DNA from: Dichetophora obliterata
Lineage: Eukaryota; Arthropoda; Insecta; Diptera; Sciomyzidae
Assembly: GCA_963920525.1 (NCBI GenBank)
Contig: OY986438.1
Coordinates: 184,014,888-184,078,887 of the forward strand
Direction: 5' to 3'
Length of the DNA stretch: 64,000 nucleotides
Of the stretch, positions 1 to 52,264 are shown in pieces. A program made the position numbers and the translations under genes. The notes beneath the pieces were generated by a model. It was not told the DNA's origin, ran no database searches, and saw only the letters and a list, made by a program, of their open reading frames with translations. The number at the start of each line of letters is the position of its first letter. Position 1 is the first letter of the stretch.

Positions 1-484
1 AGAATTACAAAAATAATTTAGAAACATTTTTAGTTTTAACAATAATGCTTGCATTTATAATATTATTGTCAATTATCAACAATTGTTGAATAAAATGAGA
101 ATTTAATTGTAAATAAGTTTGATAATATTAATCGATGTTACTTCAATCAAAAAACAATATTTTTAATCTGATCTAAAAAATAACGATCTTTAATTTATTA
201 TTATTTTTATTGGAAAAAATATCGATTTATGCTTGATTTTAATTTTTTAACAATTTTTTTGATCGATAAATTTTTTGTGAAAGATATTTTTTTCGATCAA
301 ACAATCATTCTTATATGTATTCAAAAATAAATAGGTCAAAGATTGAATTATTTTCAATTGAAAAATTTCAATTAATGAATTGCTTTATTTTTCTTGAATT
401 AAAACAATATTTATCATAGAACACTCCAACAACCAAATTCATTACAGACTTTGACGAACAAAAGAAAAATACACGCGTAGCAGT
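1..484. other. AT-rich intergenic sequence, no gene seen
   Basis: Only AT-rich, low-complexity sequence with many stop codons in all frames. No inverted repeat, reading frame or RNA gene could be supported. Confidence 0.6.
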
Positions 485-3357: not shown

Positions 3358-3845
3358 TAGCATGCACATTAGAGCGTATCACGTTATAGGGGGGAAAAAA
3401 AAAGTTCGCCGTAAACCTTCGAATATGAAGCATTTTTGTCTGTTGTTTTCGAAAAAAAAATTTTTTTTTTTTTGACCGAACGTAGGGGTCGCGCATTTAC
3501 ATTTTTGTTTATAACTTCGTCATTTGACGTCAGATTTTAAAGTATGTTATATCAAAGTTTTTGTCTCGAGGAGACCAATATTATTGTTTCAAAGGTCATT
3601 GACCTCAGACCCCCCGTTCTAGTACTTACTCACCAGATCTCAGTTCCTACCATGCTAACATGCCACCCTGATTTCAGAAAAAAAAAGCTCGCAAAAAATG
3701 TGTAAACTTTTGTGAAGGAAGTATATCGATTGTTTCAGTGCAAATATTTTTAAAAATTTTTTTAATTTTCTTTGACGAAATTAGGTTATTTTTACACTAG
3801 AGTATATCATAAAGGGCTTAGAGCTACCTTGAATTGCAATTTTAA
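3358..3845 (+). repeat. Left arm of long inverted repeat
   Basis: Inverted match to 4799-5273 over about 480 bp. Shared marks in order are 'CATGCACATTAGA', a poly(A)/GTTCGCCGTA block, the GACCGAACGTAGGGGTCGCG block, CTCGAGGAGACC, the GGGGGGTCTGAGG-type block, and TACCTTGAATTGCAA at the inner end. Identity is high apart from homopolymer length. Confidence 0.85.
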
Positions 3846-3935
3846 GACAAAAGGCTATTCATAATCAAAAATTAACAAATGAAATAAAACTTTATTGAAT
3901 TCAGAAACCATTGGATCCATTTAATCCATAAAATT

Positions 3936-4342
3936 TCAATCCATCAAATTTCGACGTGATTCAAGTTGGCTGTATTTCTGACGGCTCTCGAGTTTAGCTA
4001 AAATGTGGCCCATACGTTGTTCATCGGTGACGGCCATAGCAGATTCATGTACTACATGGACAAAACGCTCGGTGTTTTGAGAATGGCATGGATAAGCTGT
4101 ACAAAAATATTAAGGCTTTGCAAAAATGAAACTATAAAATTATGTTATTTTTCTTATGCAAACCTGGTAATTCAATGATTTCATTTGAATATTGTAATGC
4201 TTCTAGCTGGTCTTGCGTGAAGAACTGCAAGCATGGCGGCTCCGTCACTTCGAATTTGGTCCAATTAATCATACTGAAGTATGAGTCACTCTCAAAATTT
4301 ATGAAATTTTGACGACATTGACAGGTATGAAATAGACCAACA
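3936..4342 (-). pseudogene. Spliced C-terminal reading frame of the THAP-type element
   Basis: On the minus strand an open frame runs from about 4342 to 4164, ends in CCAG, and is followed by a GT...AG intron of 67 bp (4097-4163, acceptor TTTTTGTACAG). Splicing joins it in frame to an exon 4096-3936 ending ...RRNLMD and TGA. The joined product of about 110 residues includes NWTKFEVTEPP and an AYPCHSQNTERFVHVVHES motif. From memory, the P-C-H-[ST]-Q-x-x-E-R pattern recurs in uncharacterised invertebrate proteins. A poly(A)-type AATAAA follows the stop (minus strand, near 3885). The frame is closed upstream by a TAG, so only the C-terminus survives. Confidence 0.55.
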
Positions 4343-4418
4343 CACTATGTTTTAAGACAAACACTTTGAGAGGGAGTTTTAAAATCGGGTAAAAGGGATA
4401 CAACTATGAAAAATCCCA

Positions 4419-4706
4419 TCAATCGTGCGTATTAAAATGCATTTCGCAGACTTTTTCCGAAGACTTCAATTCCAATCCACACGAGTCTTTCTACCTTTTC
4501 CTACATAGTTCATTTCTGGGAACCTTGAAAAAACTTAAATTTTCTTTGTTCCAAGTACAGCGGCAGATAGCACAGCTTCTAGAAATTTTCTTTAATGTAA
4601 AGTATATTTTTGTAGCACTGCACTGAATTATTTTGGTTAACACACTAGACGCGTCTTGTAGATTGAAGGCAATAAGAAAGTAGAAATTTACCATTGGATT
4701 TTGCAA
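4419..4706 (-). pseudogene. THAP-like zinc finger fragment
   Basis: The minus-strand frame contains CAICRCTWNKENLSFFKVPR, then an in-frame stop after CRKR, then SSEKVCEMHFNTHD in the same frame. The spacing C-x2-C ... C-x2-H and the F-x-x-P element match the THAP (C2CH) DNA-binding finger used by P-element-superfamily transposases and by host THAP proteins. One stop codon breaks it. It sits upstream of the C-terminal frame on the same strand inside the long inverted repeat, so both are probably ends of one deleted transposase gene. Confidence 0.55.
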
Positions 4707-4798
4707 TGGATTATAACATAAAGAATGGCATCACTGTATTTTGTGATTTTGGTAGCACCAGTTGATCTATTTCAGAGATGTTGTGGCTAGGAGTGTTT

Positions 4799-5273
4799 TT
4801 AAATTGCAATTCAAGGTAGCTCTAAGCCCTTTAAGATATACTCTAGTGTAAAAATAACCTAATTTCGTTAAAGAAAATTAAAAAAATTTTTAAAAATATT
4901 TGCACTGAAACAATCGATATACTTCCTTCACAAAAGTTTACACATTTTTTGCGAGCTTTTTTTTTCTGAAATCAGGGTGGCATGTTAGCATGGTAGGAAC
5001 TGAGATCTGGTGAGTAAGTACTAGAACGGGGGGTCTGAGGTCAATGACCTTTGAAACAATAATATTGGTCTCCTCGAGACAAAAACTTTGATATAACATA
5101 CTTTAAAATCTGATGTTAAATGACGAAGTTATAAACAAAAATGTAAATGCGCGACCCCTACGTTCGGTCAAAAAAAAAAAAAAAATTTTTTCGAAATTAA
5201 CTTGCATAAATGCTTCAGAATAGAAGGTGTACGGCGAACTTTTTTTTTGCGATACGGTCTAATGCACATGCTT
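4799..5273 (-). repeat. Right arm of long inverted repeat
   Basis: Reverse complement of 3358-3845. It starts at TTAAATTGCAATTCAAGG and ends at AATGCACATGCT. The central spacer 3846-4798 holds the THAP-type coding remnants. Confidence 0.85.
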
Positions 5274-5286
5274 TGAGACTGAGTAG

Positions 5287-5800
5287 TTAGTTCAATCGTA
5301 GTTATCTTAAGCGAAGGTGTACTCACCCTTTGAACGTTGTTTACTCTAAGCTCAGGCGTAGTTATCGTAAGCGCAGGTGTACTCACCCTTCGAACGTTGC
5401 TTACTCTAAGTTCAAAACGTAGTTATCTTAAGCGAAGGTGTACTCACCCTTCGAACATAGTTTTATTCTAAGCTCAGGCGTAATTATCTTAAGCGAAGGT
5501 GTACTCACCCTTCGAACGTTGTTTACTCTAAGCTCAGGTGTAGTTATCGTAAGCGAAAGTCTACTCACCCTTAAAACATAGTTTTACTCTAAGCTCAGGC
5601 GTAGTTATCGTAAGCGAAGGTGTACTCACCCTTCGAACTTTGTTTACTATAAGTTCAAAACGTAGTTATCTTAAGCGAAGGTGTACTCACCCTTCGAACA
5701 TAGTTTTACTCTAAGCTCAGGCGTAGTTATCTTAAGCGAAGGTACCTCCACCCTTCGAACGTAGTTTTAATCTGAGTTCTATCATAGTCACTCACAGCGA
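5287..5800. repeat. Tandem array of about 60-bp units with dimeric order
   Basis: About eight units of 60-61 bp share TAGTTATCKTAAGCGAAGGT and GTACTCACCCTTCGAAC. Units alternate between two variants (GCTCAGGCG...CGTTG and GTTCAAAACG...CATAG), giving a rough 120-bp higher-order period. The array directly follows the right inverted-repeat arm and has no clear counterpart on the left, apart from possible single-unit remnants near 3320-3360. Confidence 0.85.
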
Positions 5801-12240: not shown

Positions 12241-14517
12241 CTAATTTTTTTGATCCCTCTACTAGAGTCTGTTGATCGAAATCAACAATTTTGTTTGCTG
12301 AACTGTGTAATCGAGCTTTAAGCAAACTCTTTTTGCCTTTTAGGCATTCATGTCAACAACACACTATTGAACCAACAGATACCGCAACATTAATACTGAA
12401 GCTTGCACCACCTCGATATGAGTCTGCCAGACAATAACAATCTTTGAAAACCATTTGTCACCAAAGATAAAGTGAACCAGCTGTGAGCAATAGCAAACAA
12501 ACATTAATTTGGCGATGTTGCAGATGAGTGCGAAGCAATAAACACATTGCAAGGCGTTAAATAAGCTCGAATGTCTACATTAGTGGGAGTGTGTCGTGCC
12601 AACATTATGTGTGTGTGCCTGTGTGTCTAACGTGTCGCTGTGCTGTCAAAATGCATGCTAACTAAATCGTTGTTGTCCTACTTTCCAGCGTTTTTAAGCT
12701 TATGTAGAACATAGCAGTAGAAGAAAAGATCGAAGAAAATAGAGTGAGACCCACACAAACACAACCACCACTAGCTTAAAGTTTTTAAAAGTAAATTTTC
12801 ACTATGAAAGAGTTTAGAAATTGGAAAGAAATTTATGTGAGTCCCAACAAAATGACCTAATTTCACAGACAGACAGACAACCCTTTGAAATTAGCTATTA
12901 AAAAGCAGGTCACGCGCATTATTTGGCATAATTAATTAATAGATTAATGTGTTTGCTTTAAACATGCAGCAAAATAAAAAAGGTGTTAATAAAAAAAACA
13001 CATTCTTCAAACATAAGCAAATAAATTATAATAAATCTTCACTCCGCTACTCTGATGCCCTACAGCGGAAGTCTATTTAATATCCGTTTCAACATTTCAT
13101 TTTATTGATTCACAAAATATGGCTAAAGTATGTACATATGTAGGTGATATAAAGTTTGCCGTAAGCAATAACACTGCGCTGAGCGTGCTTATGTGTGGCC
13201 TTACTGCTTATGTTTGTGCATATTTTGATATGCCTGGTAATTTTTTCATATTGCCTTGAGCTATTCGCACAACTACATGCACATGCTGCAAGATACACGT
13301 CCAAACAAACAAACCTACCAAACAAATTCATGTATAGCACACATTTTTTAATATGTCGCTATGTATGTTAAAATTAGTGTGTTTATGTTTGTTTGCCTAT
13401 TTTTAAGGGAGCCCATAAAACACATGCTTTAAATTCAATACCATTTTTGATATTTTTTCATAAGGAAGTTTTTGCTGTATGCTAAATAGCATCCAAGATT
13501 ACTTTTTTTTTTTTTGTTGCAAACAACATTTCAAGTAGAGCGTGAGTTTTTCCCTCATCAATATGATAAATAAAAAAAAACACAATTCCATCTAAGCAAC
13601 ACTTCTGCAGTCGTTGAGTTCAAATCAACTGCTTGCGTACAACGTGGCGTATACGTTATATTTTAAAGATGTTTTGAAAACGAAAAAGTTACACGTTCTT
13701 TTAAACTTTTCTTTTTTCTCTATAGTATTTCTTTTATTTCTTGCCACAAAATATATCATCCTTTCTGTAAAAGCAGCATTGGTGCTCGTTTATTTTTTTT
13801 TTAAGGCAACTTGTTGTTCGTTTCAACTTTATGCTGCGTTTGCTTCCATTTCTTGTAAATATTTCATCACTTCACTGAATCCGAATTGAATAAACGTTGT
13901 AAATTTCCGCTTTGTAAATTGCTTTTAGCAAAACGATTTACACGAGTTTACTTCATCAGCAGCATCATTATTGTTGTAATCATCATCGTGATGCGAAACA
14001 TTCGAAGGAAATTTTCATTTTATTATCATTATTTTGATAACTTAAAATATTTGATAAATTGCTGTTTTCTGCACTTTGAAAAGGAAGTCAAAAATAAAAT
14101 GCTACTGAATGTGACTTTAGACTTAATTTATAATTTGACTTGGCTTTACATAAAAAAATACCTTGGAAAAATTTAAATGCTTTAGTAAAATAAATGGTTT
14201 TATTTAACGACGAATAACAGCGCCATTAAGAGAAGTATTTTGTTTTTTTTTTTATTTTTTTGAAAAGAAATGTGGCAACAATTGGATTTTTTAATTTTTA
14301 TATTTGGAAGGATTATTTTTATTCATCATTGAGAAAACATTGCTTTAGTTTTTAGTTCAGTTCCAATAAAAAAATTTAAGATTGCATATCGATATGGTGC
14401 ATTTTTTCCAGCTCAATTTTTTTTAAGGAATTGAGTATTAAATAAAAGTGCAACGCTACTAATAAGTGTTATTAATATTTATTTATATCATTTGAGGTCA
14501 AATAATTTAATATATTA
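12241..14517. other. Unique-looking AT-rich sequence, no gene supported
   Basis: No known protein, RNA gene or inverted repeat stands out. There are CA/TG-rich microsatellite tracts near 12600-12640 and 13120-13340. Some frames of 60-96 codons are open, but they are AT-driven and have no recognisable domain or codon bias. Confidence 0.5.
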
Positions 14518-14752
14518 ACAGCCCTATTCTGGCAAATTAACAATTGTTAAACAGTTTTTTTTTTATTTCTTTATGTAAAAAAACAAAATTTTTTAATGAA
14601 ATTGTCAATAACTGAAAAGCAGTTAAGAATTTTTATTAAAATTAATTATTTTTGGGCTTTAAATTTTGTTTTGAAATCAAAAAATTGAAATAAGCACATA
14701 GAAATATTTAAAATACTGGTCAACAATTGTCAATTTGCCAGAATAGGGCTGT
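14518..14752. mobile_element. MITE family 2, copy a
   Basis: Ends ACAGCCCTATTCTGGCAAAT and its reverse complement enclose 235 bp. Further inside are inverted AACAATTGTTAA-type and AAATTTTGTTTTGAAATCAA blocks. Full copies occur at 32125-32358 and 49790-50056 and a left end at about 21516. The duplication is TA or TAA/TTA; the palindromic flanks make it ambiguous. Confidence 0.85.
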
Positions 14753-15507
14753 TAGGCATATTTTCATATTAAATCTAATTTTGTAAATAAAATTTCTATT
14801 TACATAAAAGCACATCACGACGTATGAGTGTTATGTTGTTTGGTTTGAATTTTATTACATACGTAATAAACCCATTTAAGTTTTCTGCTTCTTAATTGTT
14901 TTAGCTCCTTGTGGAGCATATGGCCGCTTCTAATTGTAGTCTAATGTGTTTTTAAATAAGCAATAGGTTTCACACCCAAAAAATTCCAGCGCGGGCTGGA
15001 AGAGAGATCTCACGGAAATTTGTTTTTATAATAAAGAAGAAAGATGGACTTAAAATTTCGACCACTGGCGAACTCTAGTAAGTATTAATACAATATCTAA
15101 TAATTTTTTAGAGATTTTGAAATTGAGAATTTATTTCATTATGTTTAATTCAGAAAAATACACAGGCTTTATGTTTGAAACGCTCATAAGGGCAATAGAA
15201 GGATAAGGAAAAGCATACTTTTCTAAATTAAGGGGGCACAAATCTTTAGAATTTAGGAATAAAATAAATAATTTATTTTTCATTCTCGAAAAGTAGAATA
15301 TTTTAAAAGTAATCACTAAAAATGTCAGACTAGTCGGATTATTATTTATGCAGATTAATATCTTTTACTACGGGTTTTTATCTCCACGCCCATAGTAGTC
15401 AAATCTTTAAATCTGTTTTTCTAAAAAACATATTTTAGAAGATGGTTACCACTGTAACTTTAAAACGGCTTTACCGATAAGAATTTTTTGGCATCATGCT
15501 AAATATA
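14753..15507. other. No gene seen
   Basis: AT-rich sequence between MITE 2a and the Tc1 relic. One GC-richer patch at 14980-15015 shows no known match. Confidence 0.45.
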
Positions 15508-31548: not shown

Positions 31549-32124
31549 GGTTGTTAATTGAAAATTAAAACCCATACCGTGAATTTGTAAAGGTCATTGA
31601 ATTTAAAAATTACCTTGAAAACAGACATTTTCACTTACAAATTTTTTTTTATAAAAAATTAATAGCTACACAAATATTCAAAATTTTTAATTTTGTTGGA
31701 GTTTTTACAGCGTGTGGTTCGTACAGTGGTTCTTTATTGATTTTGGTCACGTCCCTTTTTTAATTTCATCTGAAACTAGCTCCCTCTACAAAAATATTTT
31801 TATAAATTCAATAAGTTTTCCTGATTTATATAATAAATTTAAATTAAAAAAAATATTTTTAATACAACTTGAAATACAGATATTCACGAAAATATAATTA
31901 TTAGAAAACAGTAGTCATTAGTTTTTTACAAAGAATATTTCAGTGCACTTTTTTTAAAACAAGTCATAAGACTTAAATTACAAAAATTTAAATATGAGAA
32001 AAAAATATTACGCTAAAAACAATTTAAAAACAAGTTTATATAAAAATGTGTTGGTTTCTGTGACTGTTGGCAAATCTTTTGATCAACTTTTGAAAGTGCA
32101 CACCAGAGATCATTTTTAATATTA
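31549..32124. other. AT-rich sequence, no gene seen
   Basis: No reading frame with a recognisable domain and no inverted repeat between the Tc1-like element and MITE 2b. Confidence 0.45.
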
Positions 32125-32358
32125 ACAGCCCTATTTTGGCAAATTAACAAATTGTTAACCATTTTTTTGAATTTTTCTATGTGTTTGTTGTTTGCAATAC
32201 AAAATTTAAAGCAATCACTAAAAAGCAGTTGTCAATTTTTATCAAAATTTTTTATTTTTGAGCTTCGAATTTTGTTTTGAAATAAAAAAGTTACAACAAA
32301 CACTTAGAAATATTAAAATACTGGTTAACAAAATGTTAATTTGCCGGAATAGGGCTGT
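32125..32358. mobile_element. MITE family 2, copy b
   Basis: ACAGCCCTATTTTGGCAAAT and its inverted counterpart (ending GCCGGAATAGGGCTGT) enclose 234 bp with the same inner inverted blocks as the 14.5-kb copy. It ends about 100 bp left of the piggyBac-like element. Confidence 0.85.
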
Positions 32359-32460
32359 AAGTATTGACCTTTTTTAATGTATATTTAATAGAGCTGAGAG
32401 ACTCAACAAATAGGTATAGAGAAAAATCTGCACTAACCAGAGGACACATTAAACGGTATT

Positions 32461-32515: not shown

Positions 32516-35282
32516 GGTGACCCCCTAAGAAATCACAAGAGAATTGAACAATTTCGGTTATATTTTTGTACTATTTATGAACTCACAGAAAGGAAGATGA
32601 AGAGTTTTTTGTCGCTCTCAAACAGCTTCCTCTCTTTTTAGTTGTTTTTATTGTTTCTCCATTTTTCGAGAGAGAAATAAATTCTCTTTCACATATACTC
32701 TTTGCTCCACTTGTATGAATATTTTTAGGGCGATCAAGTGTGGATTTTTTTCATTTCGTTTTCGCAAAGTAGATAACAAAAACAAAAAACTCTTTTCATA
32801 CTCTTTTCGGTTCTTCTGCTTTCTAACGGTAGTTCAGATCTGTACATACATATGTATGTACGTATGTTGTGAAATGTATGCATAGCGAAGCAGAGATTTG
32901 CTGAAATTTACAATTTAGTTGTAATGTTAGAACGTTGGTTAGTGGTCGCGAACTATTTCGACATGAGTGGTGAAAACAATTTTAAATATCTTTCTGCAAG
33001 CGCTGTTGCAAGGTATGTATTTTATTATCACTATTTTTAATAAGTTAAAACAACTATTAAAATTAATGTTGCCAAAGGCTATCCCATGAAGATCGAGAAG
33101 CATATTTTCGTCAAGTAATTGACGCTGAATCAGATTTGGATGATACTGAGAATTTGTTTGGAGATGATGATGACGACGATAATTATATGCCTAGTGGCGA
33201 AGCTGAAGATTCTGACGTGGAACAGGAGCATTGTGAAGTTGAGGTAAACAATGAAAGTGATTTTGATTACAATGATGATTGTGATGATGATGATGAATGG
33301 AATAATGAAAACCAGAACCAGAATAATTCTTATTACGAGACTAAAGACAATGTGAAATGGTTCAAGGAGGCACCACATATGAATCGCCGAGGATCGATCA
33401 ATATTATGCGAGAAAAACTTTACATGGGCCCTAATCCAATCACTAAAAATATGTCCAGGGTCGATACTTTCAATTGCATTTTCAGTGCCGCTGTTAAAGA
33501 TTTAATTCGAAGATTTTCAAACAAAAAAGCCGAAACTGTGTACAACAAATGGAATTCTGAAAACCCCGATAGGCAACAACGTACATGGAAAACAATTACA
33601 AACGACGAATTATCAGCATTTTTTGGCATTTTGCTGGTAATGGGCAGCCACATGTCTAGTCAGGAGCGCCTCTCAGAGCTTTGGAAGAAAAACGCATATC
33701 CCCTGTACCGTGCAACCATGTCACGTAACAGATTTGCGGAAATTTTACGATTCCTTCGGTTTGACTGGCATGCTACAAGAGAGGCTCGACAACAGGAAGA
33801 CAAGGCTGCACCTATCAGAGACGTCTTCGACATGGTAAATTCAAACTTACGATCGCATTATCGACCACATGAATCAATTACTGTGGACGAGCAATTGTTT
33901 GGATTTCGGGGTCGAACACGTTTCACGCAGTACATGCCATCCAAGCCAGCTAAATACGGCATTAAAATCTGGTGGGCATGTGACTCAAACACATTTTACC
34001 CACTTCAAGGCCAAATATACACAGGCAAAATGAGTAATATAAGGGACACAAACCAAGGTGAGCGTGTTGTAAAGGATTTAGTTCACATGTACAAAAATAC
34101 TGGAAGAAATATCACCATAGACAATTTTTTTACAACATTGCCATTAGCCAGGGAGCTGGCCACTTGGAAATTATCTGTGGTAGGCACACTAAAAAAAAAC
34201 AAAAGATATGTTCCCGAAGAATTCAAGCCGTCCCGAAGCCGCGAAGTCCTATCAAGCCTATTCGGGTTTGCCGAAAATGTAACTTTGGTCTCCTATGTCC
34301 CAGCCAAAAACCGATCAGTTATTTTGTTGTCCACGATGCATTCTGATAAAACTATTTCTGGTCCAAACAATAAACCAGAAATAATTCTATATTACAACCA
34401 GACTAAAGGTGGTGTGGACACAATGGACAAAATGTTGTCACAGTATTCGACAAAACGAGCAACATTTCGCTGGCCATTAGCACTATTTTTCAATATTTTG
34501 GATACGGCGGCCCTTGCTGCATTCATAATATACAGTGAAAACATTGGAGAAAAGTCTGTAAGGCAATCGCAGCGAAAGCAGTTCCTCGAGAGCCTTGGAG
34601 AAGACCTATGCCGGCCACTAATATTATCAAGGTCCAAAATACCACAAGTCATGGGAAGATTTGCAATAAAATCAGCCATTGAATGCATTTTAGGTAAAAA
34701 ATTTGAAAACCCAAAGAATTGATAACAAAGCTTTACTTTTCAGGTGAACCAGTTACCGCTTCGGACCAAAATAATGATTTTGAAGTCGATGAAACTCCCG
34801 AAAGAGATGCAACTGGCCGCATCAAAATAAAAGGCAAATGTTATAAATGCTACTCTTCAAAACAAAGAAGAAATACACGACAAGCTTGCGTTAGATGTAA
34901 GAAGCCCATTTGCGCAGAGCACAGTGTCAGTCAGACCAAATGTGAAAAATGCTTATAATTAGATTATAATTAATAAAGTCAAACACAAAAAGTGAAATAA
35001 ACTACATTTAAAATAGATTTTCTTATAAATAGATGGTGAATTCTCTTAGGACTTCTTAGGGGTCACCCAGGTGGGTATTGGTAAACCATGTAATTAAATT
35101 GATAAAAATTAAAAAAAAATCATTTAAAAATTTAAAAAATTTATTATATTTTTCAAAATCCTAAAGAGCACACCAAATTGTTCAGTGAGTCCGAATTTCC
35201 CCTAGATCGGGACACAATTAATAAAAATATAAAAGAAATAAAACCGAAATGGTCACCCGGGTGGGTATTGGTAAAGCGAAGG
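32465..35282 (+). mobile_element. Complete piggyBac-like element with TTAA duplication
   Basis: TTAA flanks both ends (32461-32464 and 35283-35286). The terminal repeat is CCTTCGCTTTACCAA. At the left a spacer of about 22 bp separates it from ACCAATACCCACCCGGGTGA; at the right the two parts are fused, and another copy of the inner repeat lies about 200 bp inside (35060-35085). The 2.82-kb element encodes one intact, spliced transposase on the plus strand. No stop, frameshift or internal deletion was found, so it may be recent and possibly autonomous. Confidence 0.92.
32963..34958 (+). CDS. piggyBac-like transposase, intact, three exons
   Basis: Model: exon 1 32963-33012 (ATG at 32963), intron 33013-33077 (AG|GTATGT...AAAG), exon 2 33078-34693, intron 34694-34743 (TAG|GTAAAA...TTTTCAG), exon 3 34744-34958. 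The joined frame is 1881 nt, 626 residues. Residues 33-80 are Asp/Glu-rich. The DDE_Tnp_1_7 core has the piggyBac triad D287 (ITVDEQLFGFRGR), D365 (NITIDNFFTTLP) and D464 (TKGGVDTMDKM, next D467); spacings of 78 and 99 compare with 78 and 101 in the Trichoplusia element. The C-terminal cysteine-rich domain is C588, C591, C604, C607, C612, H615, C622, C625. It cuts and pastes at TTAA and acts in the nucleus. Without the second splice the frame would end at 34722 before the zinc domain. The introns are inferred from consensus sites and frame. Confidence 0.92.
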
Positions 35283-37740: not shown

Positions 37741-38340
37741 GTGTTGTTTTTATCAATTACTTGGATGTTGCCTTCAAAACTACCGCACTAAAATATTTAT
37801 ATGTGCACAAATATTTTTTATTTCTTCTCCTTGGTTTATAATAATACAGTTTTCTTGAGTTTGGCTAAATTTTTTAAAAGGATGGAGTTTATTAGTCGAA
37901 CAGAGAATTCTTCTCTTCCTCGTATTCGTAGTACTGTTATTCGAAAATAGTGTGAAATATCGCGAGTGCAATAGAAAATATTTATATGTGCACAATTGCT
38001 TTTTTTGTGTTTTAAAAATTTTAAAAAAAAACGAGTTTTTTGCTTCGCCATAAGCTAGTATTCGAACTAAAAGGTGGCTATTTTCACAACCAAATGTTCA
38101 ATTACACATGACTTTGACCGAAATCGACCAATTATTAGATTATTTAATTAATTTGATATTATTTAAACTTATCCTAGCAACTAGAACAGATGGCAACCTT
38201 GGTAGAGTTGATTGAGGTGATCTATAAATAGCATTCTGCTTTGAAATGTCATATGATTAGCAGCCATACAATTCAAAAGAATGAATTCCTAAATCTACGA
38301 AATTATATACTAATTTAAACATTGAGTTGATCACAGCTTA
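37741..38340. other. Unassigned; 21-bp direct repeat
   Basis: AAAATATTTATATGTGCACA occurs at about 37790 and 37975, 185 bp apart. A TATA-like TATAAATA lies at 38221-38228. No reading frame could be supported. It leads into the hammerhead motif. Confidence 0.4.
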
Positions 38341-38399
38341 ATCACTCAAAGACTACTGAAGAGGAAAATGTAGCGATTTCCGAAACAGACTGTCTAGTC
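38341..38399 (+). ncRNA. Type I hammerhead ribozyme, interrupted in helix I
   Basis: Core order is complete. AGACTA (38350-38355) is helix I 5' strand, then CTGAAGA (38356-38362, CUGANGA core). Helix II is GGAAA with TTTCC (38363-38367 and 38377-38381) around loop ATGTAGCGA. GAAA follows (38382-38385). Helix III is ACAG with CTGT around a single A, and the cleavage triplet is GTC with the cut after C38394. TAGTC (38395-38399) pairs with GACTA. The outer helix I AATCACT (38340-38346) pairs with AGTGATT at about 39488-39494, beyond the hAT insertion. The fold is read by eye; activity is not shown. Confidence 0.75.
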
Positions 38400-39474
38400 C
38401 AGCGTTTGGACCTGGGGTCCGCCGTCTAATCTATTTACATTTGAATTAATAATTTTATTTTTTTTTTAATTAATGATTATAACAGAAATTTTGCATACAA
38501 TAAACACACGACACTTCAGGTCAAAAATATATTACACATCAACGAAGACTGCGCTGTATTCATCGCACAGTATGCGAGCAGCATTTTTTTTTTAAATTCT
38601 GTTGGCAGCGCCAATAAACATGCTAATCATTTCAATAACTTTGAATGGCTTACAATGGTGACATATTTGGCTGATATCTTTAGTGCCCTGAACGAGCTGA
38701 ACTTAAGTCTACAAGGAAGAGATAACAACATCTTCCAAGTTGAAGATAAAATAGAAACTATGATAAAAAACTTGACCTTTAAACTAATCGTACAATTAAA
38801 AAAACTTTAATCATTTTCCTACACTGGTAGCGTTTTTGGAATCCTCTGGTGGAGAAATATTGCAACGAAAGTAGAAGAGGAAATGATTAAACACCTCCGC
38901 GGTTTGATGTCTTCTTTTCGGGATTATTTTCCAGAACCCGACAGAAATAAAAACTGGATAGCAGACCCTTTCAACGCAGATGTTTTTAGATATAATCGGC
39001 GTGAAAACGGTATAGGAAAATCAATTAATAGAAATATCATGAGATACAGCTTTAAAACGTAATTTGAAAGAATCGTCTTTATCAAGTTTTTGGGAAAATT
39101 TAAAAAATGTTTATAAAGAAATATCAGAAGAAGCGCTAAAATATTTACTGCTTTTCTCGTCCACATGCCTCCGTGAAAAGGCATTTTCTGCTCTTTTATA
39201 CACCAAAAACAAATACAGAAATAGATTACAATTGGAATCAGATTTGAGATTACAACTAAGTAAAAACACCAACCCAAATATTACTAATTTAGTTTCAAAA
39301 AAGCAGCACCAACCTTCACATTAATACAGAATTTTTAATTTCCATAAAAATGTAATTTTTTCAGTACTAAAATAATTTGTCCATAATTTATTAATGTGTT
39401 TTTATTAAGGGGGTCCTTGAAGTTGTGCGTGATTTTCTAGGGGTCCGCGGAGTGAAGAAGGTTAAGAAACGCTG
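38400..39474. mobile_element. hAT element (ZBED5/Buster-like) in the hammerhead
   Basis: Flanked by a perfect 8-bp duplication GTCTAGTC (38392-38399 and 39475-39482). Ends are CAGCGTTTGGACCTGGGGTC and CAGCGTTTCTTAACCTTCTT (reverse complement of the right), both typical hAT. The interior encodes a decayed transposase with a hAT dimerisation domain. At 1075 bp it is internally deleted. Confidence 0.92.
38640..39324 (+). pseudogene. hAT transposase relic with dimerisation domain
   Basis: Early part: LADIFSALNELNLSLQGRDN and IFQVEDKIETMI, as in ZBED5/FAM200/SCAND3-type hAT transposases. After a broken stretch, 39064-39324 encodes SSLSSFWENLKNVYKEIS, EEALKYLLLFSSTCLREKAF, SALLYTKNKYRNRLQLESDL, the hAT C-terminal dimerisation region, ending in QHQPSH. 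Several stops and deletions; the N-terminal BED finger and catalytic core are largely gone. Confidence 0.85.
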
Positions 39475-39612
39475 GTCTAGTCAGCTAAGTGATTGACTCT
39501 ATACATTGTTGTTGTTTTTGTTGTTGCCTGCTTAAAAACTTACTTGATCTAAACACTTACTTAAACAGAACGGTAATACACATTTTAGAGTTATTTTATT
39601 TTTCAAATAAAA

Positions 39613-42824: not shown

Positions 42825-45040
42825 AGAACAATTCCGCATCATTAACCCAAAAATTGTGTTTTTTGAGCTATGACAGTCTTAAAATAAATGCTCGATATGG
42901 TTTCTGGGTTTCGATTTCAATGTGAACCTTAGCATCGGAAGCAGCATTTTCTTCAGGCGACACATTGTCCAGATCCAAGAATGATAGAATAAGAGATTAC
43001 GCTTTGCGCAGGTACGTTACTTCTGCTAATCGAGTTTGACAGCATCTTTTCAGTTGACTACGTCACAATATTTTATTTCTTTGAGAAACGTACTGCGATC
43101 GGTTGTGTTTTATTTAATTGTGTATATATCGAAGTATATTTGTGAGTTTTAACTTAAAATTTAAAAAATGGAGTGTGCAGCTGCTAATTGTGGTAACAAT
43201 AGCAAACAAATATTTTTCAGAAACCTGATGTTTGCAATAAATATAAAAATTAAACCAAGAAATTGTAGAAAACGCACACAAACGAAAACAAAAATACAAA
43301 AATATATTAACTTAACAAAATTTGTTTCATTATTTAGTAACTTGGAACTATCATTTATTTGTCCTTTCAATTCACAGGTAAATTAATGGAAATAAAATAT
43401 CTGGGAATGTTTGAACTACATCAATTTAATTTGTAATAAATATTTTTATAAAATCCAAGTCGAAAAATAATGCTCACTGAAGTTGGTTTCTCAGAAACTT
43501 TTTTTTGACTAAGCTGCTTACTGGCTGTTATAAAATAATAGTTAAAATAATGTTTGCAAAGGAGTACTTAATAAATTTATCTTCTTATCGTTCCAATAAA
43601 TTGCTTCTTAATTTTTTTCATTTAATTATACAAACTAAAATGTATGCAATTTTCATTTCTGTGTAGAAATCGTATGCAAAGTGAACGCTCTCCAAAACAG
43701 CATTGATATAATGACGTACATGCGCAGAACGACAATTTTGTTGTACTCATTTTCTTGTCTTCGGTGCAATCTTTGTATTCTATCATTCTTGGTCCAGATC
43801 CACATCATCATCGCCTTCAAATGGATCAATTTTCTCGTTCTCTTCATATCAGCGGAAAACCATACATCAAACCTGTCATCCATTTGACTCCTCTCGCATA
43901 CCGAAAAGTCTTTATACATATATCGTGGTGCAATTTACCACATCTACATTTATCTTAAAAAAAAACCCCAAACAAATTAACTCGAAAACCAAACTCACAA
44001 ATGTTTAGGTCGTGCTACAACTAACGAAGATACAGCGTTTCAAGTGAGCGGACTTCATGCGGATTTTCGATAAAAAGACTTTAAATTCGATTTTCTGGAA
44101 AACAACGTTTTTGAAGTCGGTTGTTTGCACTAATGTTGTTTACGGTAAAACTATTTCCACACATAAATCAACAGGTAATGCCGAAGCGGTTTTTTTTTTT
44201 ATTTTAAAATAATGAAATTACTTCAATTTTTCAGAGAAAATCGCGTTTTTGACTTCAAAATGCTACCAAAAGAAAAACAAAATTCGGTATTACCTCGAAA
44301 AACATATTAGCCCAGTATCATAGTCAAAATAAAAGTCGACTCTAAATTTAGTATAAGCATTTTTGACAGTTTTTTAATATAAAATGTTTATAATCGACTT
44401 TTATTTTGACTATTTTAATGGGCCAGTATCTTTTAAACAAATTTTAAATTATTTTTTTCAGATGATCCGCTAACCTCTAATCGTGTTCACAGCAAAACAA
44501 CTGTTTTTTGAATCGCCTCCGGAGAACCGGTCCCACGGATTTATTTATCGATAATTTTTATTTTTTTCCAAATATACTTAAGATGTCAAACTATAACATG
44601 TATATGAAATAAATATACCAACATTATTCATATCTCAAAAAAAAAATCATGAAAACATGCCTTTTTTGGGACTTAGAACAGTACCATCCCCTTAAGTTGA
44701 ATAAAATCAATTCATACACAAAAATCGGTTTGATTTCGTACTCATTGTCGTAGCCGCATGGAGGAAGTTATGGATGGATTCTTCTCTAACACGTAAAACA
44801 AAAAAGTTACACACACACGTTTATATGCGAAAAGTCTACACAGACCTGGTTATACCACCTAGGGTTAAACATCTAAATGTGTTGAAAAGTTAGTTTAAGA
44901 TTAATGTAGTCACTTTTTTTTAAATTTTGTTTCTTTTTTAACTCTGATTTGAAAGGCAAAAAGCACACATAATTCGGCTTCGAGTAAGCGGAAGTTGTGA
45001 ATATTAGCTTTTGAAAGTGAATGGACTAAATAAAGCACAG
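42825..45040. other. No gene supported
   Basis: AT-rich. A frame at 43168 begins MECAAANCGNNSKQ, faintly THAP-like, but does not continue. Frames around 43650-43960 are open on both strands without a recognised domain. Repeated TCGACTTTTATTTTGACTA-like strings face each other near 44330 and 44395. Otherwise nothing seen. Confidence 0.4.
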
Positions 45041-45041
45041 A

Positions 45042-45090
45042 AGACTACTGAAGAGTTGATGTAACGATCAACGAAAAAGCTGTCTAGTCT
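45042..45090 (+). ncRNA. Type I hammerhead ribozyme, complete
   Basis: AGACTA (45042-45047) pairs perfectly with TAGTCT (45085-45090) as helix I. CTGAAGA (45048-45054) is the CUGANGA core. Helix II is GTTGAT with ATCAAC (45055-45060 and 45067-45072) around GTAACG. GAAA (45073-45076) follows. The helix III region AAAGCTGT is weak, with one A-G mismatch, as if from the palindrome ACAGCTGT; very short helix III is known in retroelement hammerheads. The cleavage triplet is GTC with the cut after C45084. Helix II differs from the 38.35-kb copy but remains paired, while the loop core TGTARCGA is the same. Confidence 0.75.
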
Positions 45091-45337
45091 GTTTGGTGAA
45101 TTCTTCTGTAAAGAAATTGTAGTTGCTGCAACCTGTTGATAAATGAATTTATTTGGCATTAATACGAAATATACAGAAAATATAAAATATATATAGAAAA
45201 TGAGAATTAATACGTAAAAAAATCAGGAATTGAATGGATTCTTGTGATGCATTTTAGAATGCATTCCAAAGAATATATAAATTTAAAGCAAACTCTTTGA
45301 ATTGGAATCAATAAACAAAAAATTTATTGATTCGTTT

Positions 45338-48724: not shown

Positions 48725-49789
48725 ACAGGTATGTTGTATAGATTATTGTAACATTTAAAAATTTTATTTTCAACTGTAACGTGTGTGTGTGTATGTGTGT
48801 GTGTTTGCTCTAATTGTTGAACGTTAGATGAGTCCTTAGAAAACACGTCCGTACTGTTGCGTATCCTCGACCAAACTATGCTTCATACAACTAATTATAG
48901 CTCGCAATCAACTGGAAAATGCGCAAAAATGTAAAGTTTTTCCGCTTTATTTAATATTTCATGAGCGACAATGACGCTGCCTACATGTCACTTTGTGCTG
49001 CTGCTGCTACTGCTGCTGTTAAAATTGTAATTGCTATTGTTGCCTGACGCCTGAGAGTATGACGTTTAGTGTAGCTGTTTCAGTTGTTCGCTGTCATTCA
49101 GACTCACTTTGACCGCAAGCCAAGAGCCCCAAATATAGGCGTTAACAAAAGCGAATGCGTGCGAGTACGCGCCGTATAAAATTATTACCTTTTGTCATAC
49201 TGTCAACTGGTGTCCTTTTTGGCGGTTTGATGAGCTGTTTTCTTTTTATTGCCACTTTTAAGCTTTTTCGCAATTTATTACCCATCATATTTAGAGGTAT
49301 GGGGGGTGGAGAGGTTGTAGGATAAATGGTGCTAAAGTTTATGAAAGCTTTCACTTTTGCATATAATTGCCCCATGTAACACGCACGCCCCTTATTACAA
49401 TATCGCTTCCTGTGCAGCGGCGACGCAGCAACATGTTAACATAATAAATGTTGCTGTCAAACGCTGCGTAGCTTCGTTTCATCATGTCATTTGAACTGCC
49501 TCACACATCGAGTCACACACATACCTAGTAGTAAATTTTGAATGCCTTGGTTAGCAAATAATACTAAAGATATCACTGTTGGCTGAGTGTTTTTTCTTCC
49601 GTTAAGACCTCAGGTCACGTAAGGAGACCACAACATTTTTTAACGTTTGTTAAAAAAAAATATATATTTATTTACGAAACAAAATGTACCACACGTTGAC
49701 ATATCGCTCGATGTCTTTGTCAACGTCATAATCACAAAAACTTGAAAAATCGAGTTATTAATGCAGAAACGTCTATTTTTTCTAGATTT
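48725..49789. other. Upstream region of the host exon
   Basis: Contains a GT microsatellite (48780-48812), a CTG/CTA tract (48998-49020) and moderate GC, unlike the repeat-rich flanks; it looks like 5' UTR, promoter or neighbouring exon sequence. A minus-strand frame at 49142-49375 (MGQLYAKVKAFINFSTIYPT, later KPPKRTPVDSMTK before a possible donor GTAATA) might be another coding exon, but support is weak. Confidence 0.45.
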
Positions 49790-50056
49790 ACAGCCCTATT
49801 CTGGCAAATTAGCAAATTGTTAACCAGTATTTTGAAATTTCAATGTGTTTGTTGTAATTTTTTGATTTCAAAACAAAATTTGAAGCTCAAAAATAATAAA
49901 TTTTGATAAAAAATTGTCAACTGCTTTTCAGTTATTGACAATTTCATTCAAAAATGTTGTTGTTTGTGCTTCAAATTTTGTTTTGAAAACAACAAACATA
50001 TAGAAATATAAAAAAATACTGGTTAACAATTTGTTAATTTGCCAGAATAGGTCTGT
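49790..50056. mobile_element. MITE family 2, copy c
   Basis: ACAGCCCTATTCTGGCAAAT at the left and a right end whose reverse complement starts ACAGACCTATTCTGGCAAAT; the inner AACAATTTGTTAA-type and AATTTGAAGC-type inverted blocks match copies at 14.5 and 32.1 kb. Length 267 bp. Confidence 0.85.
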
Positions 50057-52264
50057 AAATGTATACCATTGGTGACGATATCTTTTTATACCCTACGTTA
50101 TAGCAGGTTTTTTGATTACAACATCGAGAGGTATTAAAAATTTTGCCACTGAAATAATAGTTATTTACATAAATTATTTTAAGGTGCCATCGTGTAAGGA
50201 TCCAACTGTTTCAAAACTAATGTCATTTCATGTTTTATACATAATTAGCAAATACCCGCTGCTTCGCCTGCGATAAATATATTAAATACTATGTAAAAAT
50301 TTTATATCTTGAAATGAAAGTATTTAGTTGCATTTAATGAAAGTTTAATTATGAAAAAATGGTATATATTATTAAGATATTACTTTATTTAATTTGAATA
50401 ACTTATTTTAACGGTAAGTGTTATGATGCCATAAATTTACCAGGCTTTCTTTTTTTTACTTTTGAAAAAGTCCTGCATAAAAAAATATGGGTAAAAAAAT
50501 TTTAAAATTTGTAATCAGAAATATAATTTTTTACAAACATTCTGAAAATAAATATATTCTTCTTAAATTGTTGTAGTTAATCGGCCTTCTTCAGTTATTA
50601 ATTGTTGTTATTGGACTTCGGCCAAACAATAATTCTTCTTAAATTGAAAAAAAAACCGATATAATGACATCAAAATTTTGGCGATATCTTAAAAACTATA
50701 AACTTTTTCAATGCATAACAATGCATTTTTGTATGGACAGTCGTTGATTAATAAAATTAACGGTCATTTTCTTTTCTTTTCGGAAATATTTTGTACGGAT
50801 ATTAGGTATGTTTTAAAAAAACCTGTTATTATGATATTAAAATTCTTGCGATATCTCAAAAGTATAGATTTTCTCAATATAACTCATAAGCCTCAGAATG
50901 AGAAAAAAAAAACGATTGAAATTTACAAATCGATTTTCATCCAATTTTCTTTGTTTGAAAGTTCAATTAAGTAAATTGGGAAAATGAGAAAAGGTTTACC
51001 GTTACCTCACCAATACAATGTTTTATATTGTTTTCTAAAAACCTCTAAAATATCCAACTTGCACTAAACAATAAAAAAGGCCAAGAGTTGCTTTTGTTGT
51101 ACATATTTTTTTTAATATTAATTTTTTTTTTTGATTTTCATTTTTCTTATTCTTTCATATAACATAATTTACCTTCAAAAATTGTTCTATTTTGACACAA
51201 ACAGTTTCTATCATTAAAAATCATGGGCCACCTACCCCCGTCCCCCTATGATTTTTTGATGAAAACTAATTTGCATAAAATGTTGTTATATTTTTTGCAA
51301 TGTGTTACAGCTTAAAAACTAATTCATGTGAAAAATTTTTCAAATATAGCTTAAAAAATAATTCTGTGAAAAATATTTCAAATATTTCAAACTATTCCAA
51401 AGTTCTATACATAAATCTATGTTTTTCCTTATCCTTAGGGAATAGAATTTATCTATTTCCTTATCTATATATTCATAGTTAACGTTATAGTTATAGTAGA
51501 ATTTGTCCTGACCCAATCCAATGAATTTTTTATGATCGTTTTGTGAATTTGTAAAAGTGTAAATTGACCTTCGAACAAAACACATGCTAGACGTTTCCGT
51601 TTGAAACATCAATGCATGACGATAAGAATTTTCTGATATATACAGCATTCTTATTGATGTATAGTATTGCCCGGCAGACGTTGTCCTGCCGCAAACCACC
51701 TTACTGCTATGTACGAATTTTCATGCTGTTCGGAAAAAAAAATTTATATATTCGTCATTTTTAGTACAGTTGCCGAAAGTAGCCGTATGAACTAAATTAA
51801 CAAATTTTAGTCTAATAACACCAAAACCGTTCGAAATATAACATTTTTGATTAATTCTGGGCGGTAATTTGGGTGTGGCAATTTTTTTTTACTGAAACCA
51901 TCTCATACTCGAAACAATAGAATGCCAGAATCTCAGCTCAATTGAGCTTAAACCTAGTGCGCTTTGCTTTACTCCAAGTTTATCCCCCGAAAAGTGGACT
52001 TAGTTAAAGAGGGTCATGCCCATTTTTAGTAAAGTTAGCGAAAGTAGCCATGCAACGTAGATTACCAAATTCTAGTATCATACGACCAAAATCATCTGAA
52101 ATATAGCATTTTTTGCAAAAAGTGGGCATGGAAAGCAGACGTGGCAAATCTTACATAGCATATTACGATAAAGTTGGAATAACAAATCGTTTGATACCTA
52201 TATCGTGTTAATCTGTTCAGTGGTTCTTGCGTGATTGTCAAACATCCGTGCAGTGTCAACGCTT
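50057..52264. repeat. Unclassified dispersed repeat region
   Basis: No gene. TTCTTCTTAAATTG is repeated at about 50560 and 50630. The segment 51660-52250 contains a diverged tandem duplication of about 260 bp: CATTTTTAGTACAGTTGCCG with GAAATATAACATTTTTG, then CCATTTTTAGTAAAGTTAGC with GAAATATAGCATTTTTTG. It ends GTTCAGTGGTTCTTGCGTGA then CAAACATCCGTGCA, a style common in insect non-autonomous repeats. Its class is not known. Confidence 0.5.

Follow-up and report, generated by a model that had tools for sequence, protein, structure and literature searches.

Type I hammerhead motifs of Dichetophora obliterata on a short, non-coding and probably non-autonomous element family with Penelope-type integration features

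Introduction

The closest described counterparts of the repeats analysed here are Penelope-like elements and the non-coding retrozymes of metazoans. According to the available text of a study on Anolis (PMC11167929), the Penelope-like protein cuts and extends both DNA strands, and reverse transcription (RT) is initiated internally at a pair of neighboring sites, most often 111–118 nt into an open reading frame (ORF). The hammerhead of this ORF is cut at nt 26, which places the RT start 85–92 nt past the cut, and the sequence between the two RT sites equals the 30–40 bp "tail" of some genomic copies. The same text reports that the start sites did not differ between the strands, that hammerhead mutants still inserted and that the ribozyme cut only in the presence of the protein. 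In a rotifer, the accessible part of PMC3846280 describes inverted pseudo-LTRs (pLTRs) with target-site duplications of 8, 9, and 10 bp, and none in some copies. Head-to-head arrangements are the most frequent there, one inverted pLTR carries a 31-bp tail, and the pLTRs are apparently enough to move a foreign gene in trans.

Retrozyme-like repeats are known from many invertebrates, insects included (PMC7229834, available text), and minimal type I hammerheads number in the thousands in many genomes, where most of them are dispersed (PMC7761336, available text). Both sources, as far as their available text goes, regard Penelope elements as "likely" and "strong" candidates for moving animal retrozymes, and both treat the mover of these retrozymes and the role of the hammerhead in Penelope-like elements as open questions. 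The schistosome elements Sm-alpha and Sj-alpha are, in the partial descriptions available, also short non-coding hammerhead retroposons, SINE-like and from another phylum; they are likened to the present family by description only. Dipteran hammerheads related to HDV-like RNAs are of type III in fly genomes (PMC7936874, accessible part), whereas the present family is of type I. Our literature search, whose coverage did not extend to two key Penelope-hammerhead papers, returned no Penelope-type end signature on a retrozyme and, among the matches listed, no dipteran non-autonomous Penelope-type hammerhead family.

Here we analyse a 64-kb stretch of the D. obliterata genome (the window), in which an initial annotation had described a complete type I hammerhead fold and a second copy of the motif, and we follow the motif through the genome.

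Hammerhead motifs in the window

A structural scan for CTGANGA, at least 4 bp of helix II, GAAA and at least 5 bp of helix I returned exactly two matches in the window, copies A and B (Table 1). The same scan gave 20 matches in total in 1,000 dinucleotide shuffles of the window, that is 0.02 per window. Both copies contain in order the type I core C3 U4 G5 A6 N7 G8 A9 / G12 A13 A14 A15 / U16 H17, the list of invariant positions being that of the available text of PMC3088659, and in both of them helices I and II are paired next to the core. The letters ascribed to copy B proved correct, with helix I AGACTA/TAGTCT, the core CTGAAGA, a 6-bp helix II (GTTGAT/ATCAAC), GAAA, and a predicted GTC cleavage site in this order. 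The second copy, expected near 38.35 kb, is likewise present and combines helix I GACTA/TAGTC and the core with a helix II that is different yet paired (GGAAA/TTTCC). When aligned, the two copies differ in helix II, where one base is inserted, at one loop base, and in the region of helix III. This last helix is paired over 3 bp in copy A; copy B reads AAGCTG after GAAA and has an A.G mismatch at the second pair, so that calling its fold "complete" was an overstatement. The mismatched A is a C in the four other fetched copies of the family to which copy B belongs, family 2 (L074, L075, L078, and L087). Helix III of family 2 contains the palindrome CAGCTG, and copy B is predicted to be a weaker ribozyme than copy A. 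It is also found in the listed copy C1:26,640,397 (AAGCTG) and is thus not unique to copy B; A.G at this pair occurs in 4 of 56 distinct motifs.

The Rfam model Hammerhead_1 (RF00163) assigned type I topology to both copies, with 18.5 bits for copy B and 16.0 bits for copy A. Its curated cut-off is 34 bits, and both motifs thus fall below the threshold in the covariance-model check that the initial annotation had proposed. No hammerhead was listed by a gathering-threshold Rfam scan of the whole window or by a permissive scan of 8.5 kb of it. A well-kept family 2 copy, L075, in which all pairs are standard, reached 27.9 bits as type I (E 1.7e-5), still below 34 bits. Folding programs leave the tertiary contacts of hammerheads unscored. 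The minimum-energy fold predicted for copies A and B, a rod-like hairpin and not a hammerhead, is therefore a weak counterpoint and no refutation. The predicted fold of the region after the cut was no more stable than those of shuffled sequences.

Table 1. Positions in the window of the two hammerhead motifs, the elements that carry them and the transposon inserted into one of these.
Feature	Position	Strand	Remarks
Family 1 element, inverted head-to-head arm of copy A	38029..38172	-	unit +336..+192, 93%
Family 1 element, direct arm of copy A	38176..38399	+	unit -180..+43; 87% to L064 unit, up to 93% to other copies
Hammerhead type I motif, copy A (family 1)	38350..38399	+	predicted cut after C38394
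hAT-type insertion splitting copy A, 1,075 bp	38400..39474	.	outside ribozyme carrier
Rest of copy A element, displaced by hAT	39475..39553	+	unit +36..+114, 92%
Family 2 element around copy B	44945..45194	+	similarity to other family 2 copies; extent is the reach of similarity
Hammerhead type I motif, copy B (family 2)	45042..45090	+	core, helices I and II, predicted cut after C45084

Copies and pairing across the genome

The pattern CTGANGA-N14..24-GAAA-N4..10-GTCTAGTC was searched in the whole genome (1,312,693,994 bases, or 1.31 Gb, in 76 contigs) and had 6,285 exact matches, 3,158 forward and 3,127 reverse, against 0 and 1 matches of the backwards pattern in the same genome. Fifty-five motifs were analysed, namely 53 of the 100 listed places and the two window copies. 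In 44 of these 55, 5 bp or more of helix I are paired, compared with 0.5% in random upstream sequence; its 5' strand lies outside the search pattern, so pairing there was not imposed. A helix II run of at least 4 bp from the core is present in 45 of the 55 motifs; the other 10 have a run of 0 or 1 bp and thus no core-adjacent helix II. The expectation that both helices are kept paired in the genomic copies holds for most of them.

For covariation, copy B was added to 55 listed motifs to give a set of 56 distinct ones, which was compared with 2,000 shuffles that ignore relatedness. Pairs 2, 3, and 4 of stem II are paired in 46, 55, and 47 motifs, values that 0, 0, and 1 of the 2,000 shuffles reached; pairs 1, 5, and 6 displayed no excess pairing over the shuffles. 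These data support, on comparative grounds, the assignment of the window motifs to type I hammerhead ribozymes with a putative cleavage activity. The selected fold that the initial annotation had deduced from compensating changes between the two window copies is supported far more by the genome-wide pairing, the covariation, and the score of L075. Of the 12 + 43 records from pattern scans of viral and prokaryote contigs, none had at least 4 bp in both helix II and helix I, the nearest record being L016 with 3 bp in helix II and 4 bp in helix I.

Two loci, L076 (G000:C1:13034879) and L077 (14079803), represent additional hammerhead families, in which the loops differ and the base of helix II contains a mismatch. 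They can nevertheless be aligned to the family 1 element, at 71% and 77%. Judging from this divergence, the ribozyme family appears to have a long history in this lineage. In the common motifs of families 1 and 2, loop II contains an ATG directly followed by TAG or TAA, an arrangement that is not kept in L076 and L077. The ORF of the Anolis Poseidon element begins at stem II (PMC11167929, available text), and by comparison with it the ATG in loop II may be what is left of a former start codon.

The carrier element

One locus, L064, is a perfect tandem array, the only one met, with a unit of 578 bp. This unit has a GC content of 33.9%, and its longest stop-to-stop run, determined on the doubled unit, is 58 aa. 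A permissive Rfam scan (601 bases, E<=1) of the unit gave one sub-threshold match and no hammerhead. Another locus, L083, consists of one unit plus a 43-bp overlap. Mapping of 41 loci and the window on the L064 unit gave a match over the motif for 54 of the 55 motifs, which in family 2 copies covers only some 50–90 nt around the motif; window copy B had no match to this family 1 unit.

An inverted partner touches the 5' end of the aligned arm in 27 of the 54 motif rows, none does in 26, and one row is of another kind. Counted as elements on the family 1 unit, 19 of 44 have an inverted partner, and self-comparison revealed inverted arms also in the family 2 loci L074 and L078. The first 20 loci had been chosen partly for holding motif pairs; among 20 loci taken in contig order from the remaining listed places (L085–L104), 6 have an inverted partner. 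Among the 100 listed places, taken without selection, neighbors at most 1 kb apart comprise 8 head-to-head, no tail-to-tail, and 3 same-strand cases, with 0.37 neighbors expected by chance. Opposed neighbors among these places are thus head-to-head in 8 of 8 cases, and all 3 same-strand neighbors belong to one array. At the 19 head-to-head junctions, as placed by BLAST, the arms overlap by 0–6 nt in 13 and are separated by a gap of 2–14 nt in 6. By these alignments the carrier is a short ORF-less element that is present in thousands of copies and often inserted as two head-to-head inverted arms.

The initial annotation had found no recognisable host element and had suggested that the carrier may be undescribed. 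Within the window alone the former holds; in the genome the short, non-coding, often head-to-head inverted element is apparent. As to the latter, the carrier with its Penelope-type signature is of a kind that the annotation itself had named, and it is the family that may be undescribed.

With the genomic copies at hand, both window copies can be read as elements. The inverted arm of copy A corresponds to the upstream part of a neighboring unit, and its outer end merges into other DNA. Between the direct arm and the displaced rest of the element lies a hAT-type insertion with the terminal inverted repeats CAGCGTTT/AAACGCTG, an 8-bp target duplication GTCTAGTC at 38392-38399 and 39475-39482, and a Dimer_Tnp_hAT remnant at 39043-39321. 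It adjoins the 3' edge of the copy A ribozyme, exactly at the cleavage site. Since the duplicated GTCTAGTC consists of the cut triplet and the 3' strand of helix I, the letters of the copy A ribozyme are intact on the left side. Copy A is a head-to-head family 1 element into which a hAT transposon inserted at a later time. Copy B aligns to L078 over -103..+114 (80%) and to L075 over -57..+146 (78%), counted from the C of CTGA, and is 74–82% identical to the other four fetched family 2 copies. No inverted partner is visible, and copy B is a diverged member of the second family with a mismatched helix III. A single window can accordingly hide a carrier, as in this case the motif scores below the curated cut-off and the carrier of copy A is split by another transposon.

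Four other interpretations of the window were rejected. A pseudoknot between loop II and stem I via the GTTTGG flank that follows both motifs is refuted by the flank of copy A, which is the end of the hAT element. An element of 6.7 kb bounded by both motifs is incompatible with their origin from different families, and a type III hammerhead as in other dipterans with the open helix I. A LINE carrier, suggested by nearby RT remnants, was discarded because, among the matches listed for the loci compared, the similarity around the hammerhead is confined to the short element.

The window contains several further repeats. A piggyBac-type transposase frame of 551 aa without a stop (33067-34722) is 76% identical to a Calliphora vicina protein and 53% to one of Lucilia cuprina. 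Taken alone, the former value would point to a calyptrate fly, although transposons are able to pass between species; a query with the host gene SLX1 yielded no match. Eight direct repeats of ~61 bp form an array at 5289-5779, and a foldback-like 455-bp inverted repeat, whose arms are 96% complementary and 944 bp apart, spans 3395-5248. MITE-like dispersed repeats of ~250 bp with inverted ends around ACAGCCCTATTCTGGCAAATTA lie at 14506-14766, 32113-32372, and 49778-50070.

Ends and junctions with target DNA

Before any adjustment, 22 of the 54 rows have their 3' end at +128..142 and 10 at +166..175; the others end at or before +123 (17 rows), at +149..150 (2 rows), or run into the next unit (3 rows). 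The search for target duplications was confined to the 17 head-to-head elements for which the positions of both outer ends are known; L100 and window copy A lack one end and were omitted. An exact duplication of at least 10 bp was found in 12 of the 17, compared with 4 of 272 swapped-flank controls, and one of at least 11 bp in 11 of the 17, compared with 0 of 272. In the 12 elements, which correspond to 11 independent sites since L064 and L070 share a target site, the duplications measure 10–14 bp and look AT-rich, in an AT-rich genome. The remaining five elements (L069, L073, L083, L089, and L094) have no clear duplication, and two of them, L069 and L094, also deviate from the pattern of one long and one short end.

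With the C of CTGA as reference point, one end is located at +163..169 in each of the 12 elements with a duplication of at least 10 bp. For the second end, 9 of the 12 give +129..136 and the remaining 3 give 71, 104, and 120; the end search may move an end by up to 14 nt, and the sharpness of the ends is thus partly aided by the method. With the predicted cut after +38, the two end sites come to lie ~91–98 and ~125–131 nt past the cut.

At the target site shared by L064 and L070 the duplications overlap as reverse complements. At one of its two occurrences the site holds a 2.4-kb element with five hammerheads, at the other a 0.84-kb element with two, and the comparison suggests that units were gained or lost while the locus was being duplicated or afterwards.

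Discussion

The features of Penelope-type integration, namely head-to-head terminal parts, a tail at one end that derives from two adjacent sites, and a short duplication, are all found in the present family. It thereby resembles elements of the Penelope/Poseidon clade such as Poseidon_Ac of Anolis and Pen2a of Adineta vaga, which combine a hammerhead, head-to-head arms, a tail of ~30–40 bp, and a short duplication. The distance of the RT start or end site from the ribozyme cut is also close, with ~85–92 nt in Poseidon_Ac and 91–98 nt here, and the target duplications measure 10–14 bp compared with 8–10 bp in Penelope-like elements. In contrast to Penelope/Poseidon elements, the present family with its 578-bp unit has no ORF, RT, or GIY-YIG endonuclease. 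By this comparison, the match consists in arrangement, spacing, and duplications without the coding part, and from the genomic junctions it looks like Penelope-type enzymes are behind the integration of the elements. We thus consider it quite likely that the type I hammerheads belong to a retroelement family of high copy number that is non-coding and non-autonomous and owes its mobility to Penelope-type machinery.

Under this reading, read-through transcription of tandem units would yield a multimeric RNA, which the hammerheads would cut to units of ~578 nt. An enzyme provided in trans would then cut both target strands with a stagger of 10–14 bp, and at each of the resulting DNA ends it would begin RT from either of two neighboring RNA sites, ~91–98 or ~125–131 nt past the cut; these positions are taken from the genomic ends, and we infer the enzyme. 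The two cDNAs would meet head to head and be joined, resulting in the inverted pair and the target duplication whose junctions are observed in the genome. In Anolis, hammerhead mutants insert and the ribozyme cut needs the protein, and the cleavage step of the proposed cycle may therefore be dispensable. This insertion of mutants and the strand-equal start sites reported there do not fit smoothly with the present reading.

As for the helper, no autonomous Penelope element was detected; a GIY-YIG profile (PF01541) run over the genome gave one match, the host SLX1, in a search that scored 100 candidates and may miss Penelope endonucleases. Six-frame Pfam scans of 36.0–45.9 kb and 45.0–49.8 kb of the window (E<=0.01) revealed hAT and Tc3 traces only and no trace of RT or GIY-YIG. 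Given that SLX1 was the sole match, the helper may have died out, be rare, or represent a kind not recognised so far.

The family has much in common with the metazoan non-LTR retrozymes as described in the available text of PMC7229834: it is non-coding and low in GC, has a type I hammerhead and monomer-multimer units, and occurs in thousands of copies. It could hence be a retrozyme in the strict sense, with tandem repeats cut by the hammerhead, RNA circularised by a host ligase and the circle mobilised by a LINE or other RT, and with head-to-head pairs as by-products of twin priming. The ORF-less low-GC unit with its type I hammerhead, the tandem array of L064, the dispersed copies, and the known occurrence of such repeats in insects are all in agreement with this account, which we regard as possible, though well short of probable. 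Its difficulties are the unit of 578 bp, longer than the ~170–400 nt reported and than the ~150–450 bp by which tandem repeats of metazoan retrozymes are characterised, the restriction of same-strand neighbors to a single locus of the 100 listed places where head-to-head pairs with one tail are common, and genomic ends that lie ~91–98 and ~125–131 nt past the cut and not at the cut. Head-to-head inverted pairs and Penelope-type ends set the family apart from metazoan retrozymes, and the word "inverted" is absent from the main text of the retrozyme paper (PMC7229834; Cervera and de la Pena, 2020). A retrozyme moved by Penelope enzymes would fit this account as well as the preferred reading of a non-autonomous family; the two overlap, and the likelihoods given here do not add up to one.

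The copies might instead be debris of autonomous Penelope elements still residing in the genome, solo pseudo-LTRs that do not constitute a separate non-autonomous family. Hammerhead, inverted pLTR, tail, and duplication would all be consistent with such an origin; against it, the perfect array consists of 578-bp units that follow one another end to end and lack a long ORF, L083 is made up of one unit and the 43-bp overlap, and the genomic GIY-YIG scan matched SLX1 alone. We therefore judge it unlikely. Far more improbable still is that the motifs are chance hammerhead-like sequences or a hairpin repeat without ribozyme function. The sub-threshold Rfam scores, with none for the L064 unit, and the rod-like minimum-energy fold point in this direction, and the two window copies taken alone are thin evidence. 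It is contradicted by the core, kept across diverged families (in part imposed by the search pattern), by the pairing and covariation of helices I and II, which the pattern does not impose, and by the E-value of 1.7e-5 in the relative L075.

Returning to the reading of a non-autonomous family moved by Penelope-type machinery, a further proposal is that the copies of an animal retrozyme record a two-sided, two-site priming of the Penelope type, and thus a link between retrozymes and Penelope enzymes that was previously proposed and not shown. We put this forward tentatively, as something that may well be so while falling a little short of likely. With thousands of copies, end sites ~33 nt apart, and clean duplications, the family would make both the question of what moves animal retrozymes and that of the hammerhead's role in Penelope-like elements testable, and it would offer a natural substrate for a Penelope protein.
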